Below, one piece after another: positions 16,888 through 23,215 of a stretch of 24,523 nt of DNA (positions are counted from its first letter, which is position 1; the number at the start of each line of letters is the position of its first letter). Position numbers and translations under genes: made by a program. The notes under the pieces were generated by a model that searched no databases, had not been told where the DNA came from, and saw nothing but the letters and a program-made list of their open reading frames with translations. The stretch is from IMG/VR virus record IMGVR_UViG_3300030380_005305, positions 25,339 through 49,861 of that record; one strand, written 5' to 3'. Source of the stretch: a virus.

Positions 16888-17175
16888 ATGCGTAGAAATA
16901 AGAAATCAAAATTTAAACACGTTGTTATTGGTTCGAAGAAGTATTTTTTCTACCGTCTAGAGTGGCTTGATATAACTGGTGATGCGGGGCATGCATCAGT
17001 CGAAGAATTTGATAAATTCGAATGCAGCAAAATGATAACACATGCATACATATACAAACGAACCCCCAAATTCGTTTGGACATTTGCTTCATATGAGGAT
17101 AAAGATGTTTCATTTTCTGACCGTAATATATTTCCTGTTGGGTGTATTGTTAAGTTAGAGAAAATTACTCTTTAA
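16888..17175 (+). CDS. Hypothetical protein
   Basis: 95 residues from ATG 16888 (an in-frame GTG at 16873 is possible; neither has a strong RBS). The N-terminus is basic (MRRNKKSKFKH), the rest beta-rich with many aromatic residues (for example YFFYRLEWLD and KFVWTFASY). The family is unknown. It has the content of a small globular protein with a substrate- or nucleic acid-binding beta sheet. Its 3' end overlaps the convergent terminase small-subunit gene by 11 bp. Confidence 0.6.
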   Translation: MRRNKKSKFKHVVIGSKKYFFYRLEWLDITGDAGHASVEEFDKFECSKMITHAYIYKRTPKFVWTFASYEDKDVSFSDRNIFPVGCIVKLEKITL

Positions 17176-17647
17176 TTTCTTCCACGACTTCTGCGTCTGA
17201 GTCTATGATAGGCTTATAGTTTTTTAATGCTTTTTCTAATTCTTTGTCTAATTCTGATTCATCCACGTTGTTAAGGTCCTTATGTAGATGTATGTGATTA
17301 TTGTGTTGAAATCCTGCAGCCTTACCTCTAGCTACTTCCATATTACCTGCAGCACTCCAGGCTTTATTTTCTCTAGCTTCATCTCTAATTTTACCTAGTT
17401 CTGCCAGGTGTTTTTCATAAGTAATATCATATTTTTTTAACTTCTCTGCTCTAAGTCTTCCAATGTATTGAGTAACTAATGGGTATAAAGATGGGTTCTG
17501 TAGTTTACTTGCCGATACGTAAGCTGAATTAGGATCATAACCTGCAGCAATAGCGCATTCAGAATCAGTCTTTCGACCTTCTTCTGTCACTATTAAATTT
17601 GCAAATTTAATTTGTTTTTCAGTAAGTCTTTTTGGTACTCCTGCCAT
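17165..17647 (-). CDS. terS: Terminase small subunit
   Basis: 160 residues on the minus strand. The N-terminal part, KRLTEKQIKFANLIVTEEG (residues 6-24) with the DSECAIAAGYDPNSAY helix-turn-helix (28-43), is the typical Terminase_2-like DNA-binding domain. The central helices would form the oligomer, and the acidic C-terminus (EVVEEIKE) would contact the large subunit. It should recognise the packaging site. It is unusual in being on the opposite strand and about 4 kb away from the large subunit gene. The gene diverges from the one at 17688 with 40 bp between them. Confidence 0.82.
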   Translation of the reverse strand: MAGVPKRLTEKQIKFANLIVTEEGRKTDSECAIAAGYDPNSAYVSASKLQNPSLYPLVTQYIGRLRAEKLKKYDITYEKHLAELGKIRDEARENKAWSAAGNMEVARGKAAGFQHNNHIHLHKDLNNVDESELDKELEKALKNYKPIIDSDAEVVEEIKE

Positions 17648-18336: not shown

Positions 18337-18371
18337 AAAAATCAACGCGCAAAATGTCGCGGCCCGTGAGT

Positions 18372-18395
18372 AGTGCTTGTGGGCGGGACCCACCC
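18372..18395 (+). repeat. GC-rich hairpin repeat, copy 1
   Basis: Core GTGGGCGGGACCCAC folds as GTGGG-CGGGA-CCCAC. It is preceded by AGTGCTT and followed by CC and a T-rich run (TTTTTATTTTTTTT), so here it could end rightward transcription after the nuclease gene. Confidence 0.85.
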
Positions 18396-18404
18396 TTTTT
18401 ATTT

Positions 18405-18424: not shown

Positions 18425-18471
18425 CCTGTGGCCTGTGGCCTCGGCTTGCGGACTGTGGTGCGTGCTTGTGG
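18425..18471 (+). repeat. Degenerate 7-bp tandem repeat (CCTGTGG-like)
   Basis: Successive units CCTGTGG, CCTGTGG, CCTCGG, CTTGCGG, ACTGTGG, TGCGTG and CTTGTGG run head to tail, and the last merges into hairpin repeat copy 2. The role is unknown; it may be slippage-derived or a protein-binding array. Confidence 0.5.
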
Positions 18472-18484
18472 GCGGGACCCACCC
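18462..18484 (+). repeat. GC-rich hairpin repeat, copy 2
   Basis: Same core as copy 1, preceded by GTGCTT and followed by TTATTTTTTATTTTTT, which reaches the 3' end of the convergent minus-strand gene. It is a plausible rightward terminator between converging transcripts. Confidence 0.85.
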
Positions 18485-18491
18485 TTATTTT

Positions 18492-19622: not shown

Positions 19623-19761
19623 TGTTATGCTCTTTAAATAATTTTTTAACAAATTTAATTAAATCTTTAAATTCTTGATTAGGATCAACTGTTAACCAAT
19701 CAACATTAGAATTAATTTTTAATGCTTTTATTATTTCTTTTTCTAATTGTGTTATATTCAT
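19612..19761 (-). CDS. Small helical protein, first gene of the leftward operon
   Basis: 49 residues, minus strand, from ATG 19761 with a good RBS (GAAAGGAA) and an evident promoter (19784-19812) in front. It is short, helical and lysine-rich (QLEKEIIKALKIN and FKDLIKFVKKLF), with no family recognised. It may act as a leader or small regulator. Its stop overlaps the Gp88-like start, so the two are coupled. Confidence 0.65.
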   Translation of the reverse strand: MNITQLEKEIIKALKINSNVDWLTVDPNQEFKDLIKFVKKLFKEHNNGH

Positions 19762-19783
19762 TTTGTATTCCTTTCATGAGTCT

Positions 19784-19812
19784 AATATAGGACATTATTG
19801 GACATAATGCAA
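19784..19812 (-). promoter_or_regulatory. Leftward promoter with tandem GGACAT motifs
   Basis: On the minus strand, TTGCAT, a 17-bp spacer and TATATT (plus-strand 19784-19789) face the leftward operon. On the plus strand, TAGGACAT (19788-19795) and TTGGACAT (19798-19805) lie exactly 10 bp apart across the spacer and -10, as expected for a tandem operator. Confidence 0.6.
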
Positions 19813-19845
19813 GGCCAGCAGCTCAAAATAAATAAAATTTTTTTC

Positions 19846-19874
19846 TTGACATATCCTATAATATCCTTTACACT
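19846..19874 (+). promoter_or_regulatory. Rightward promoter in front of the structured RNA region
   Basis: TTGACA (19846-19851), 17-bp spacer, TACACT (19869-19874). The spacer holds ATATCCTA (19851-19858) and ATATCCTT (19861-19868), 10 bp apart. An A/T tract at 19824-19844 sits directly upstream, like an UP element. No coding gene follows for about 760 bp. The rest of 19762-20000 holds only these promoter elements and hairpin copies 3 and 4. Confidence 0.62.
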
Positions 19875-19907
19875 TGGACGGCGGTTGGGGATGGCGGAGG
19901 ACAGATA

Positions 19908-19931
19908 AGAGCTTGTGGGCGGGACCCACCC
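19908..19931 (+). repeat. GC-rich hairpin repeat, copy 3
   Basis: AGAGCTT followed by the GTGGGCGGGACCCAC core and CC. It would lie near the 5' end of a transcript from the 19846 promoter. No T-run follows. Confidence 0.85.
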
Positions 19932-19952
19932 CGTGACTTGTTGCCTGTGATT

Positions 19953-19976
19953 AGTGCTTGTGGGCGGGACCCACCC
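19953..19976 (+). repeat. GC-rich hairpin repeat, copy 4
   Basis: AGTGCTT followed by the same core, 45 bp after copy 3. An A-rich tract (AAAAAATAAAAAC) follows, not a T-run, which argues against a simple terminator role for this copy. Confidence 0.85.
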
Positions 19977-20000
19977 TAAAAAATAAAAACTTTAAAAAAT

Positions 20001-20443
20001 GTCCTGCACAACCCTGCAGGACTTGGGGAGAGTTAAACCTTACACTCACAAAGGATCAGTAGGGCGGTACCTCGCATTATCGATAGTAACCTACTGATCC
20101 AAGATCCAATTACTGCCCGGACGTCTCCATCTTCATTGGATCATTAATCAGTGAGCAGAGGTAATTCCACTGCGGGATCTTCCATTACATTGGTCACTGA
20201 TCCCAGGTCACACTAAAACCGAAAAGTTACGAGAGGCAAACAACCCAGTCTCTTCTCAATTTCGGACATCATTTAAGATTAGTCAAATCTCTAATGTGAC
20301 CAGGGATCAGCATCCAGTGAAGACGACGCAAGGAGCGTGGTGTGACACTGGATCTAATCCTAGCTAGTTTGAGTTTATAACGTCGGATACTAGCAAACGG
20401 ACGTTAATAATTAAGACCGAACTAATGTTCATTTAATTATTAA
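20001..20443 (+). ncRNA. Candidate large structured non-coding RNA
   Basis: No gene is found here, but perfect or near-perfect stems follow each other closely: 20001-20008/20015-20022 (8 bp); 20053-20063/20090-20100 (11 bp); 20103-20110/20135-20142 (8 bp); 20147-20154/20194-20201 (8 bp); 20199-20212/20295-20308 (14 bp, one mismatch); 20312-20319/20346-20353 (8 bp, inner hairpin ACGC-AAGGA-GCGT); pseudoknot 20363-20368/20389-20394 with 20379-20384/20400-20405; and 20404-20414/20433-20443 (11 bp). The + strand is favoured by the upstream promoter at 19846 and by hairpin copy 5 downstream. Size and ornateness recall large RNA classes such as ROOL or GOLLD, but I cannot match it to any of them. 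Stems alone could also serve DNA packaging or replication. Confidence 0.6.
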
Positions 20444-20453
20444 ATCCAATATA

Positions 20454-20470
20454 ACAGAATATCCTATATA
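20454..20470. repeat. 17-bp direct repeat with operator motif (second copy 20583-20599)
   Basis: ACAGAATATCCTATATA occurs here and, identically, inside the promoter at 20583-20599. It includes the ATATCCTA motif. A -35-like TAACAG precedes this copy, so it may be a decayed promoter or an operator-only site. Confidence 0.6.
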
Positions 20471-20520
20471 CTCAAGGACAATATTGTCGCACCTAATTTA
20501 GAATTATTCTAAAGTAGAGA

Positions 20521-20544
20521 AGAGCATGTGGGCGGGGCCCACCC
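20521..20544 (+). repeat. GC-rich hairpin repeat, copy 5 (variant)
   Basis: AGAGCAT followed by GTGGGCGGGGCCCAC and CC. The A-to-G change relative to the other copies extends the stem to GTGGGC-GGG-GCCCAC, so folding is kept. It lies downstream of the structured RNA and may mark its 3' end. The preceding TAGAGA is shared with copy 6. Confidence 0.85.
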
Positions 20545-20579
20545 ATATAAAAAAATAAAAATTTTTTTCTTTTTAGGGC

Positions 20580-20608
20580 TTGACAGAATATCCTATATAA
20601 ACTATAAA
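20580..20608 (+). promoter_or_regulatory. Strong promoter with ATATCCTA operator motif
   Basis: TTGACA (20580-20585), 17-bp spacer, TATAAA (20603-20608), the best promoter match in the window. ATATCCTA (20588-20595) lies in the spacer. An A/T tract (20549-20574) lies upstream. It drives the gene at 20643, whose RBS is GAAAGGA. Confidence 0.72.
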
Positions 20609-20642
20609 CAAATCATAACTAACAAACGAAAGGAATACAGTT

Positions 20643-21239
20643 ATGCAACCATTAAGAAAAGACCACGTTGACAGGTGGAGTGAGTTTGTACGAGATGAAT
20701 TCGGAATTGCTTTTAATAGAGCGGAAGAAGAAATCGAAGTACAGGCGCAAGAAAAAGTTGAGGAAGTTGGTAAAGATTTTGCCAAAGAACTTAAACTTAA
20801 TCTTAAAATAAAAGAGTTGGATAAAAACGTAAATGCGTTGAGAGATTTCCAAGATAAGAAGCAATCTATGGAAAATGATTTACGTTATAAAGCTCAAAAA
20901 ATCGCTGATGAAATTTCAGAGATTTATAACAATAGTAAAAAAAGACGTAAATGGGATATGAATAACATCTCTATTGATATTAAAGATGATAACGATCCTG
21001 TTGAATACGTAACAAAGCGAATTAAAAAAGCTTGTTATGAAGAAGCAAAACGTCATTTTACAGCAAAGCATAAGTTGTATCATGCTTTAGATCAAAAACG
21101 TAAAAAGTGTTTGAATATACTTTATACAGGTAGTCATATTCAACCGACTTTGAGTGAGTTATCTAAAGAAATGAAAACCGCTAACATTCAATTAGATTTA
21201 CCTAATTCATTATTAGCTTTACCAAGTGGAGCAAAATAA
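20643..21239 (+). CDS. Coiled-coil protein of unknown function
   Basis: 198 residues. Residues about 25-105 are strongly helical and charged with coiled-coil spacing (for example AEEEIEVQAQEKVEEV and NVNALRDFQDKKQ). A basic stretch NSKKRRKWDMNN follows, then a second helical domain with two cysteines (KKACYEEAKRHF and KKCLNILY). No family is recognised. It sits alone under the strongest promoter of the window, so it may be an abundant early protein. It is translationally coupled to a membrane protein (TAATG). Confidence 0.8.
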   Translation: MQPLRKDHVDRWSEFVRDEFGIAFNRAEEEIEVQAQEKVEEVGKDFAKELKLNLKIKELDKNVNALRDFQDKKQSMENDLRYKAQKIADEISEIYNNSKKRRKWDMNNISIDIKDDNDPVEYVTKRIKKACYEEAKRHFTAKHKLYHALDQKRKKCLNILYTGSHIQPTLSELSKEMKTANIQLDLPNSLLALPSGAK

Positions 21240-21493: not shown

Positions 21494-21544
21494 TCCTACA
21501 TTATCCTATGCAATAACCGCATACCTCTCCAGGTTGTATAGAGA

Positions 21545-21568
21545 AGAGCATGTGGGCGGGACCCACCC
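21545..21568 (+). repeat. GC-rich hairpin repeat, copy 6
   Basis: AGAGCAT followed by the GTGGGCGGGACCCAC core and CC, again preceded by TAGAGA as in copy 5. It is followed directly by another hairpin at 21569. Confidence 0.85.
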
Positions 21569-21587
21569 AAGCGCGCTTCGCGCGCTT
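21569..21587. other. GC-only hairpin next to repeat copy 6
   Basis: AAGCGCGC (21569-21576), loop TTC, GCGCGCTT (21580-21587): eight perfect pairs, very stable, followed by a single further T and then A residues. Together with copy 6 it makes a double hairpin between the upstream operon and the terminase gene. Confidence 0.6.
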
Positions 21588-21706: not shown

Positions 21707-23215
21707 ATGTATAATACTTTACCACCCATATTGAAATATATGCTAACTGTTGAAGATATTAATAAAATAGAAGATCCTATTGAGCGAAGAAAGCTCAAGA
21801 TACAGATTATACAACGGCATCAAAGAAAAGAACTTAAGCAAGTTAAAACTAATTTTTTATCTTTTGTAAAAAAGATGTGGCCAGATTTTATAGAGGGGTC
21901 CCATCACAAAGAAATCTCAGATAAATTTAATAGATTAGCAACTGGAGATTTGACCCGTCTAATTATAAACATGCCCCCTAGGCATACTAAATCAGAATTT
22001 GCGTCGTTCTTTCTTCCTGCTTGGATGATCGGACAAAACCCTAAATTAAAAATAATTCAAGCAACTCACACAGCAGAGCTTGCTGTAAATTTTGGTCGTA
22101 AAGCAAAACATTTAATTGACTCAGAAGAGTATCAACAAATTTTTAAAACAAGACTCCAAGAAGATAGTAAAGCTGCAGGACGTTGGAATACATCTGATGG
22201 CGGTGAATACTTTGCAGTCGGTGTCCAAGGTGCAGTGACCGGGAGAGGTGCTGATCTACTTATCATTGATGATCCACATTCAGAGCAAGATGTAAACTCA
22301 CCATCGGCATTTGATAATGCATATGAGTGGTATACTTCAGGACCACGGCAAAGGCTTCAACCAGGAGGTCGTATTGTTTTAGTTATGACTAGATGGTCTA
22401 CAAAAGATTTAACACAAAGATTGTTAAACGCACAAAGCAACGAGAACGCAGATCAATGGGAAGTCGTAGAGTTTCCAGCGATTATGCCGTCCGGTGAACC
22501 TGTGTGGCCAGAGTATTGGAGCAAAGAAGATTTAGCTTCTGTTAAAGCATCAGCGGGTGTTGCAAAATGGAACGCGCAATACATGCAAAATCCAACTTCA
22601 GAAGAAGGAGCTCTCATTAAACGTGAGTGGTGGAAAAATTGGGAATCAGAACATATGCCTGTTATTGAACACACTATTCAAAGTTATGACACAGCTTATC
22701 TTAAAAAAGAAACTGCTGACTACAGTGCGATCACTACTTGGGGAGTTTTTCGTCCTAATGAAGACTCACCTCGTCAATTAATATTATTAGATTCTTATAA
22801 AGAACGTTTAGAGTTTCCAGAGTTACGTCGTGTTGCATTAGAACAATATAGGTATTGGAATCCTGAAACAGTAATCATTGAAGCAAAAGCATCGGGGCTA
22901 CCTTTAATGTATGAGCTTAGACAGATGGGAATTCCTGCAATGAATTTTACACCAAGTAAAGGTCAAGATAAAATTGCAAGAGTTAATGCAGTGTCTCCAC
23001 TTTTTGAAGCTGGACAAATTTGGGCTCCTCTCGATCAAGAGTTTGCTCAAGAACTTGTTGAAGAATGTGCAGCGTTTCCTTATGGAGATCATGATGATTT
23101 AGTTGACAGTACAACACAGGCTCTGTTAAGATACAGACAAGGCGGATTTATAGATCACCCAGAAGATTACAAAGAAGAAGATCAACCCAAAAAGAAAAAG
23201 AAATTTTATTGGTAA
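21707..23215 (+). CDS. terL: Terminase large subunit
   Basis: 502 residues; ATPase-nuclease motor that packages DNA into proheads. The ATPase part shows a variant Walker A MPPRHTKS (89-96), Walker B LLIIDDP (184-190) and the coupling-type MTRWS (227-231). The C-terminal RNase H-like nuclease has D328 (SYDTAY), E392 (VIIEAK) and the DHDDLVDS cluster (461-468) as metal ligands. Domain content and length are complete. The start lacks a good Shine-Dalgarno sequence (GATAGTTAATC precedes ATG). It is followed without gap by a small gene (TAATG) and the portal. The matching small subunit is likely the leftward gene at 17165-17647. Confidence 0.95.
   Translation: MYNTLPPILKYMLTVEDINKIEDPIERRKLKIQIIQRHQRKELKQVKTNFLSFVKKMWPDFIEGSHHKEISDKFNRLATGDLTRLIINMPPRHTKSEFASFFLPAWMIGQNPKLKIIQATHTAELAVNFGRKAKHLIDSEEYQQIFKTRLQEDSKAAGRWNTSDGGEYFAVGVQGAVTGRGADLLIIDDPHSEQDVNSPSAFDNAYEWYTSGPRQRLQPGGRIVLVMTRWSTKDLTQRLLNAQSNENADQWEVVEFPAIMPSGEPVWPEYWSKEDLASVKASAGVAKWNAQYMQNPTSEEGALIKREWWKNWESEHMPVIEHTIQSYDTAYLKKETADYSAITTWGVFRPNEDSPRQLILLDSYKERLEFPELRRVALEQYRYWNPETVIIEAKASGLPLMYELRQMGIPAMNFTPSKGQDKIARVNAVSPLFEAGQIWAPLDQEFAQELVEECAAFPYGDHDDLVDSTTQALLRYRQGGFIDHPEDYKEEDQPKKKKKFYW

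Follow-up and report, generated by a model that had tools for sequence, protein, structure and literature searches.

A previously unannotated, modular RNA of a pelagiphage-type virus, built from swappable hairpins with palindromic loops

The pRNA of phage phi29 multimerizes by loop-loop pairing, and to our knowledge very few natural RNAs form homo-multimers. Flavobacterium-1 (RF02976), a catalogued piece of 121 nt, reportedly originated in a comparative screen in 2017. GOLLD, ROOL, and OLE are large, ornate, highly structured bacterial and phage RNAs with pseudoknots; the first two are phage encoded, and symmetric intermolecular kissing loops in OLE (B3) and GOLLD (B8) have been argued for from palindromic covariation in work that also cites the phi29 homomers (Kretsch et al. 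2025, PMC12286853). Here, we analyze a 24,523-nt stretch of viral DNA (the window; positions 25,339 to 49,861 of IMG/VR record IMGVR_UViG_3300030380_005305) whose RNA is likewise large, structured, phage encoded, and equipped with a pseudoknot. At about 450 nt, it is shorter than GOLLD, ROOL, and OLE and is a mosaic of exchangeable modules, and its family carries many different long palindromic loops in place of their few fixed kissing loops. GOLLD and ROOL often lie near tRNA islands, whereas ARAGORN found no tRNA or tmRNA gene in the whole window, in agreement with the original prediction, which had seen no hallmark of either. That prediction had also named GOLLD and ROOL as precedents. No Rfam match to either was obtained, and the covariance models of GOLLD, ROOL, and OLE did not match 19760-20660 even at E up to 10, but the likeness holds in that the RNA is large and, probably, self-associating. 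By its predicted features, the RNA would work like the ornate phage RNAs, yet it falls outside their families.

The prediction rested on about 440 bp without a gene (20001-20443), and no convincing gene is present in 19930-20527; the sole nearby open reading frame of at least 40 aa (20528-20671) only abuts the end of this interval. Its long stems are present as well. For a 571-nt stretch, the folding energy is -175.6 kcal/mol on the plus strand (z = -7.7) and -197.1 kcal/mol on the minus strand (z = -8.2), values that none of 100 dinucleotide shuffles equaled on either strand. The Rfam covariance-model search that had been suggested left the window without a match at the gathering cut-off and gave chance-level hits only at E up to 10 over 19760-20660, and a similarity search of the region against annotated phages found nothing. 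Judged by these searches, no described RNA family covers the window. The GC-rich hairpin copies lie where they had been placed, and the leftmost predicted stem reads as an intrinsic terminator on the minus strand. The RNA boundaries originally given were wrong; we infer instead a minus-strand transcript that would start near 20441 and stop near 19994 (Table 1).

Table 1. Predicted features of the RNA locus (window coordinates).
Feature	Position	Strand	Basis
-35 element TTGAGT	20470..20475	-	TTGACA-N17-TATATA/T at homologous position in HTVC027P and others
-10 element TATATT, preceded by TG	20448..20453	-	Sequence match
Whole predicted RNA, ~448 nt	19994..20441	-	Fold z = -5.5 for exactly this interval; strand from G-U/A-C bias
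A/T-rich 5' hairpin	20404..20447	-	Fold
H-type pseudoknot	20363..20406	-	~16 different S1 stems in relatives, L1 and L3 conserved
UCACACC/GUCUU internal-loop hairpin	20310..20354	-	Covariation in 35 distinct homologues
Hallmark hairpin 1, GAUCCCUGGUC...GACCUGGGAUC, U.U mismatch	20199..20308	-	Covariation in 171 distinct homologues
Linker helices joining hairpins 1 and 2	20148..20199	-	Fold only
Hairpin 2, loop GAAGATGGAGACGTCCGGGCAGTA, palindrome GACGTC (20120-20125)	20103..20142	-	Loop on canonical GAUCCC stems in L215, L272, L273
Hairpin 3, loop GGTTACTATCGATAATGCGAGGTACCGCCC	20053..20100	-	Same loop on other stems in L008, L174, L268, L269, L271
Intrinsic terminator stem-loop	20001..20022	-	Like stem and U-run, by eye, in L124, L018, L114, L127
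Terminator U-run	19994..19999	-	Sequence
GC-rich hairpin repeat, left bound of RNA cassette	19960..19974		
GC-rich hairpin repeat, right bound of RNA cassette	20528..20542		

Relatives of the locus were gathered through the protein encoded at 20643-21239 and the GC-rich hairpin, which led to dozens of marine viral contigs. Between their conserved flanks, the homologous interval spans ~320-800 nt and is a mosaic of different modules of similar design, in which a hairpin of the type GATCCCTG-...-CTGGGATC recurs on the strand opposite the right-hand gene. A pattern scan of viral contigs for this hairpin gave at least 120 matches, and in all the hallmark hairpin was found on at least 155 contigs, including that of pelagiphage HTVC027P, and in phage 023Pt_psg01. 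These two, the latter uncultured, are also the closest records by large terminase (70% identity for HTVC027P), and the window is that of a pelagiphage-type virus. In both, the hairpin lies in an unannotated gap (MN698241.1, 17671-18218; MW574966.1, 16153-16477). The same scan covered 84,980 species of bacteria and archaea, one genome apiece, and returned one genuine-looking match, L260 (KB911123.1), a contig of phage-like character from a single-cell genome labeled Flavobacterium; the remaining five matches look like chance, lying inside unrelated bacterial DNA. The carriers are relatives of the phages of SAR11, a group that ranks with the most numerous bacteria of the sea; one of these carriers, HTVC027P, is cultured on strain HTCC1062, with public RNA sequencing of the infection (PRJNA1253180).

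The modules of these loci covary, and the window holds one of each: the H-type pseudoknot, the UCACACC/GUCUU hairpin, and the hallmark hairpin, laid out on the minus strand as GAUCCCUG-(variable paired stem)-loop-CUGGGAUC and bearing in the window a branched apical part of 78 nt. Among 171 distinct hallmark hairpins (less than 85% alike to each other), pairing is near-complete, and all four Watson-Crick pair types occur at arm positions 12-16. With the loops removed, the arms of 45 sequences have 99.0% of cells paired and a covariation of 0.464, against 0.129 when shuffled and less than 0.08 when slid. The UCACACC/GUCUU module is 97.7% paired in 35 sequences, with a covariation of 1.04 versus 0.30 shuffled and less than 0.18 slid. 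In the pseudoknot, S1 (UAACGUC/GACGUUA) pairs 20400-20406 with 20378-20384, S2 (GCUAGU/ACUAGC) pairs 20389-20394 with 20363-20368, and the third loop is A-rich (UAAACUCAA). In its relatives, the first loop (CAUUU/CUUUU) and the third loop (AAACU) are conserved, and the first stem that lies between them takes about 16 different sequences. The background of the pseudoknot finder is high (37 of 101 shuffled windows pass, versus 70 of 101 real ones), and its stems pair by construction, having been selected for pairing, so that the evidence lies in the subset with conserved loops around changing stems. Covariation across so many relatives strongly supports the central proposal of the original prediction, a large, unannotated, structured phage RNA.

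The strand on which that RNA had been read did not survive the comparison. On the proposed RNA strand, G-U pairs outnumber A-C at hallmark arm positions 12-16 by 115 to 6 and in the UCACACC/GUCUU module by 28 to 0; this bias, the terminator, the promoter of relatives, and the strand of Flavobacterium-1 all place the RNA on the minus strand, and the plus-strand reading is ruled out by the G-U bias and the terminator. The minus-strand promoter of the window, TTGAGT-N16-TATATT (20475-20448), has as its HTVC027P counterpart TTGACA-N17-TATATA, and the window terminator reads GTCCTGCAGGGTTGTGCAGGAC-ATTTTTT (20022-19994). In the window, such promoter and terminator consensus matches are by themselves at chance level, and the strand assignment is therefore decided by the comparative data. 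Nor can the terminator be called general, since a crude finder places one within 300 nt in just 32 of 112 loci. The TTGACA-N17-TACACT promoter originally proposed does exist, on the plus strand at 19846-19874, but is not the promoter of this RNA. We regard the structure and strand of the RNA as near certain.

Flavobacterium-1 provides an independent vote for this strand, which in HTVC027P and L260 is that of the hairpin. It shares the intergenic region with the hallmark hairpin, which it follows downstream, scoring 90.2 bits in HTVC027P (L267) and 104.3 bits in L260, and in five loci its core motif comes 205-257 nt after the hairpin; it is absent from the window (Rfam, E up to 10) and missing from most relatives. 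This arrangement suggests a larger phage RNA, of which the catalogued Flavobacterium-1 would be a fragment. The host implied by its name finds no support in these phage-like contigs, and the host assignment of RF02976 may be wrong, as L260 looks like a pelagiphage-type contig.

The apical loops have a median length of 33 nt and mostly look unrelated to one another. Of the 171, 43 recur on at least two stems of differing sequence, often identically, and 282 of 285 loop matches are on the RNA strand; the loops of window hairpins 2 and 3 are found elsewhere on canonical GAUCCC stems. Because a loop recurs on differing stems, the loop appears to be the unit under selection, with the stem having only to pair. 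Palindromes of at least 8 nt, centered mid-loop, occur in 41 of 113 non-redundant loops (36%), whereas dinucleotide shuffles yield 11.5% (p = 7e-12) and genomic DNA matched for GC content yields 9.6%. At 6 nt or more, 72 of the 113 loops have one, so that not every loop is palindromic, and window hairpin 1 has no obvious palindrome. Hairpin 3 has two, TATCGATA (20078-20085) and GGTACC (20066-20071), and its loop in L008, L174, L268, L269, and L271, with TGTCGATA, retains self-pairing via G-U.

When homologous loops differ within the palindrome, they tend to remain palindromic: this holds for 11 of 21 two-site changes versus 132 of 1613 control segments and for 4 of 4 four-site changes versus 3 of 166, or 15 of 25 versus 135 of 1779 in control DNA when combined (Fisher p = 5e-11). 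Examples are ACCATGGT/GCCATGGC/GCCTAGGC, GTTCGAAC/GGTCGACC/GGTGCACC, and CCAGCTGG/CCGGCCGG. The diversity of the palindromes, which have no common sequence, argues against a protein site and for nucleic acid that pairs with itself, and the inability of a contiguous palindrome to pair within one chain argues for pairing between molecules. At the level of sequence, these symmetric changes are the mark by which symmetric kissing loops between molecules have been recognized in GOLLD and OLE, and multimers are predicted on this basis. Among palindromes with a single change, G-U is not favored (3 G-U versus 6 A-C), and the palindromes themselves therefore do not prove that pairing is at the RNA level. 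Within one RNA, the loops of different hairpins are no more complementary than expected by chance, so the array has no evident intramolecular kissing network, and the loops are weak as self-folding units (mean z ~ -0.5).

We favor the explanation that a pelagiphage-type virus encodes, on the minus strand at 20441-19994, a modular non-coding RNA that is transcribed independently and probably binds copies of itself. A 5' domain, comprising the A/T-rich hairpin and the pseudoknot, would be followed by the UCACACC/GUCUU hairpin and then by the stem-loop array. Two copies of the RNA would pair through their loop palindromes as symmetric kissing loops, and self-association into dimers or larger homo-oligomers, which we consider likely, would follow. 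Loop cassettes would pass between phages while their palindromes drift by symmetric changes. The comparisons show the folded structure, its strand, the modular and recurrent design, and the excess and covariation of palindromes, and we infer the transcription boundaries, the formation of homo-oligomers, and any role in infection. An early-middle role is our guess because the neighboring gp33 and gp34 of HTVC027P peak at 6-9 h; these genes adjoin the RNA and form their own, highly expressed cluster at that time (PMC12753301). More tentatively, the hypervariable palindromic loop cassettes might act as homotypic "handshakes" by which RNAs recognize only their own copies. If so, assembly would be confined to RNAs of one phage lineage and would leave out those of co-infecting relatives. 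The many natural loop variants are a ready-made set for probing the function of palindromic loops.

Self-association is not the only use to which such loops could be put. The RNA might be real and its loops might act in trans, as antisense or bait for host or competitor nucleic acid or protein, with arrays carrying several specificities, and the retention of ~20- to 45-nt loops at high identity on unrelated stems, recurrent across phages, fits this idea. Against one SAR11 genome (1.2 Mb, G209), the only host genome covered, the mean longest match was 12.0 for the loops and 12.1 for shuffled loops, and trans action leaves the palindromes and their symmetric covariation unexplained; we consider it unlikely. 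We give still less credence to a leader or 3' untranslated region acting in cis on the expression or stability of neighboring minus-strand genes, whether the downstream GP88-family operon or upstream small open reading frames. A GP88-family gene (PF17338; 19023-19652, minus strand) does lie downstream on the RNA strand here, in HTVC027P, and in 023Pt_psg01, the array follows a small open reading frame on that strand in several relatives (L271, L268, L124), and gp33 and gp34 have an expression cluster of their own (PMC12753301). However, a terminator separates the array from GP88 in the window, as it does in several relatives, the GP88 gene comes with a promoter-like site of its own, and most of the structure is distant from any start codon.

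Two further readings seem very improbable. Conserved closing arms, variable middles, and cassette-like exchange recall attC, and a single hairpin accounts for most of the difference between L012 and L013, as might be expected of DNA elements folded as single strands, such as integron attC-like recombination sites or replication hairpins. The strong excess of G-U over A-C, the conserved single-stranded motifs (UCACACC/GUCUU and the pseudoknot loops), and the in-register terminator with same-strand promoter sites instead point to RNA. The position between the small (17165-17647) and large (21707-23215) terminase genes, together with self-pairing loops, a pRNA hallmark, would suit a self-assembling packaging RNA, for which we see comparably little chance. 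The window RNA has no Rfam match, differs from phi29 pRNA in size and fold, and has no link to a packaging ATPase of that type, the terminases being ordinary two-subunit ones; moreover, the hallmark hairpin was not found in the stretch examined of HTVC023P, a phage of the same type.

Several observations concern the surroundings of the self-associating RNA that we propose. GP88-family relatives occur in Roseobacter and Caulobacter phages. The GC-rich hairpin repeat has six copies in the window (18366-18396, 18455-18485, 19902-19932, 19947-19977, 20515-20545, and 21539-21569), all in one orientation whatever the gene direction, which separate small cassettes; at least 120 stretches of viral DNA contain the repeat core, GTGGGCGGGNCCCACCC. 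The plus strand at 19846-19990 may give rise to another small transcript, with the TTGACA-N17-TACACT promoter, two GC hairpins, and a conserved stretch rich in GC; in some relatives (L004, L012), a T-run follows. In L271, L268, L124, and L135, the array also occurs, like a 3' module open to exchange, after small open reading frames on the RNA strand, to which a GGGGCGAGCAATCGCCCC-type hairpin or else a GGGACAACUU module joins it. Loops that match array loops identically or nearly so are carried by A/T-flanked hairpins elsewhere in related phages (L006, L088, L037, L104). Finally, read by eye, L005, L018, and L267 have a different 5' domain, formed by two hairpins; their loops could kiss, with changes that compensate each other, possible pairs being UUUAGG/CCUAAA (L267), AUUAGG/CCUAAU (L018), and GUUAGG/CCUAAC (L017).
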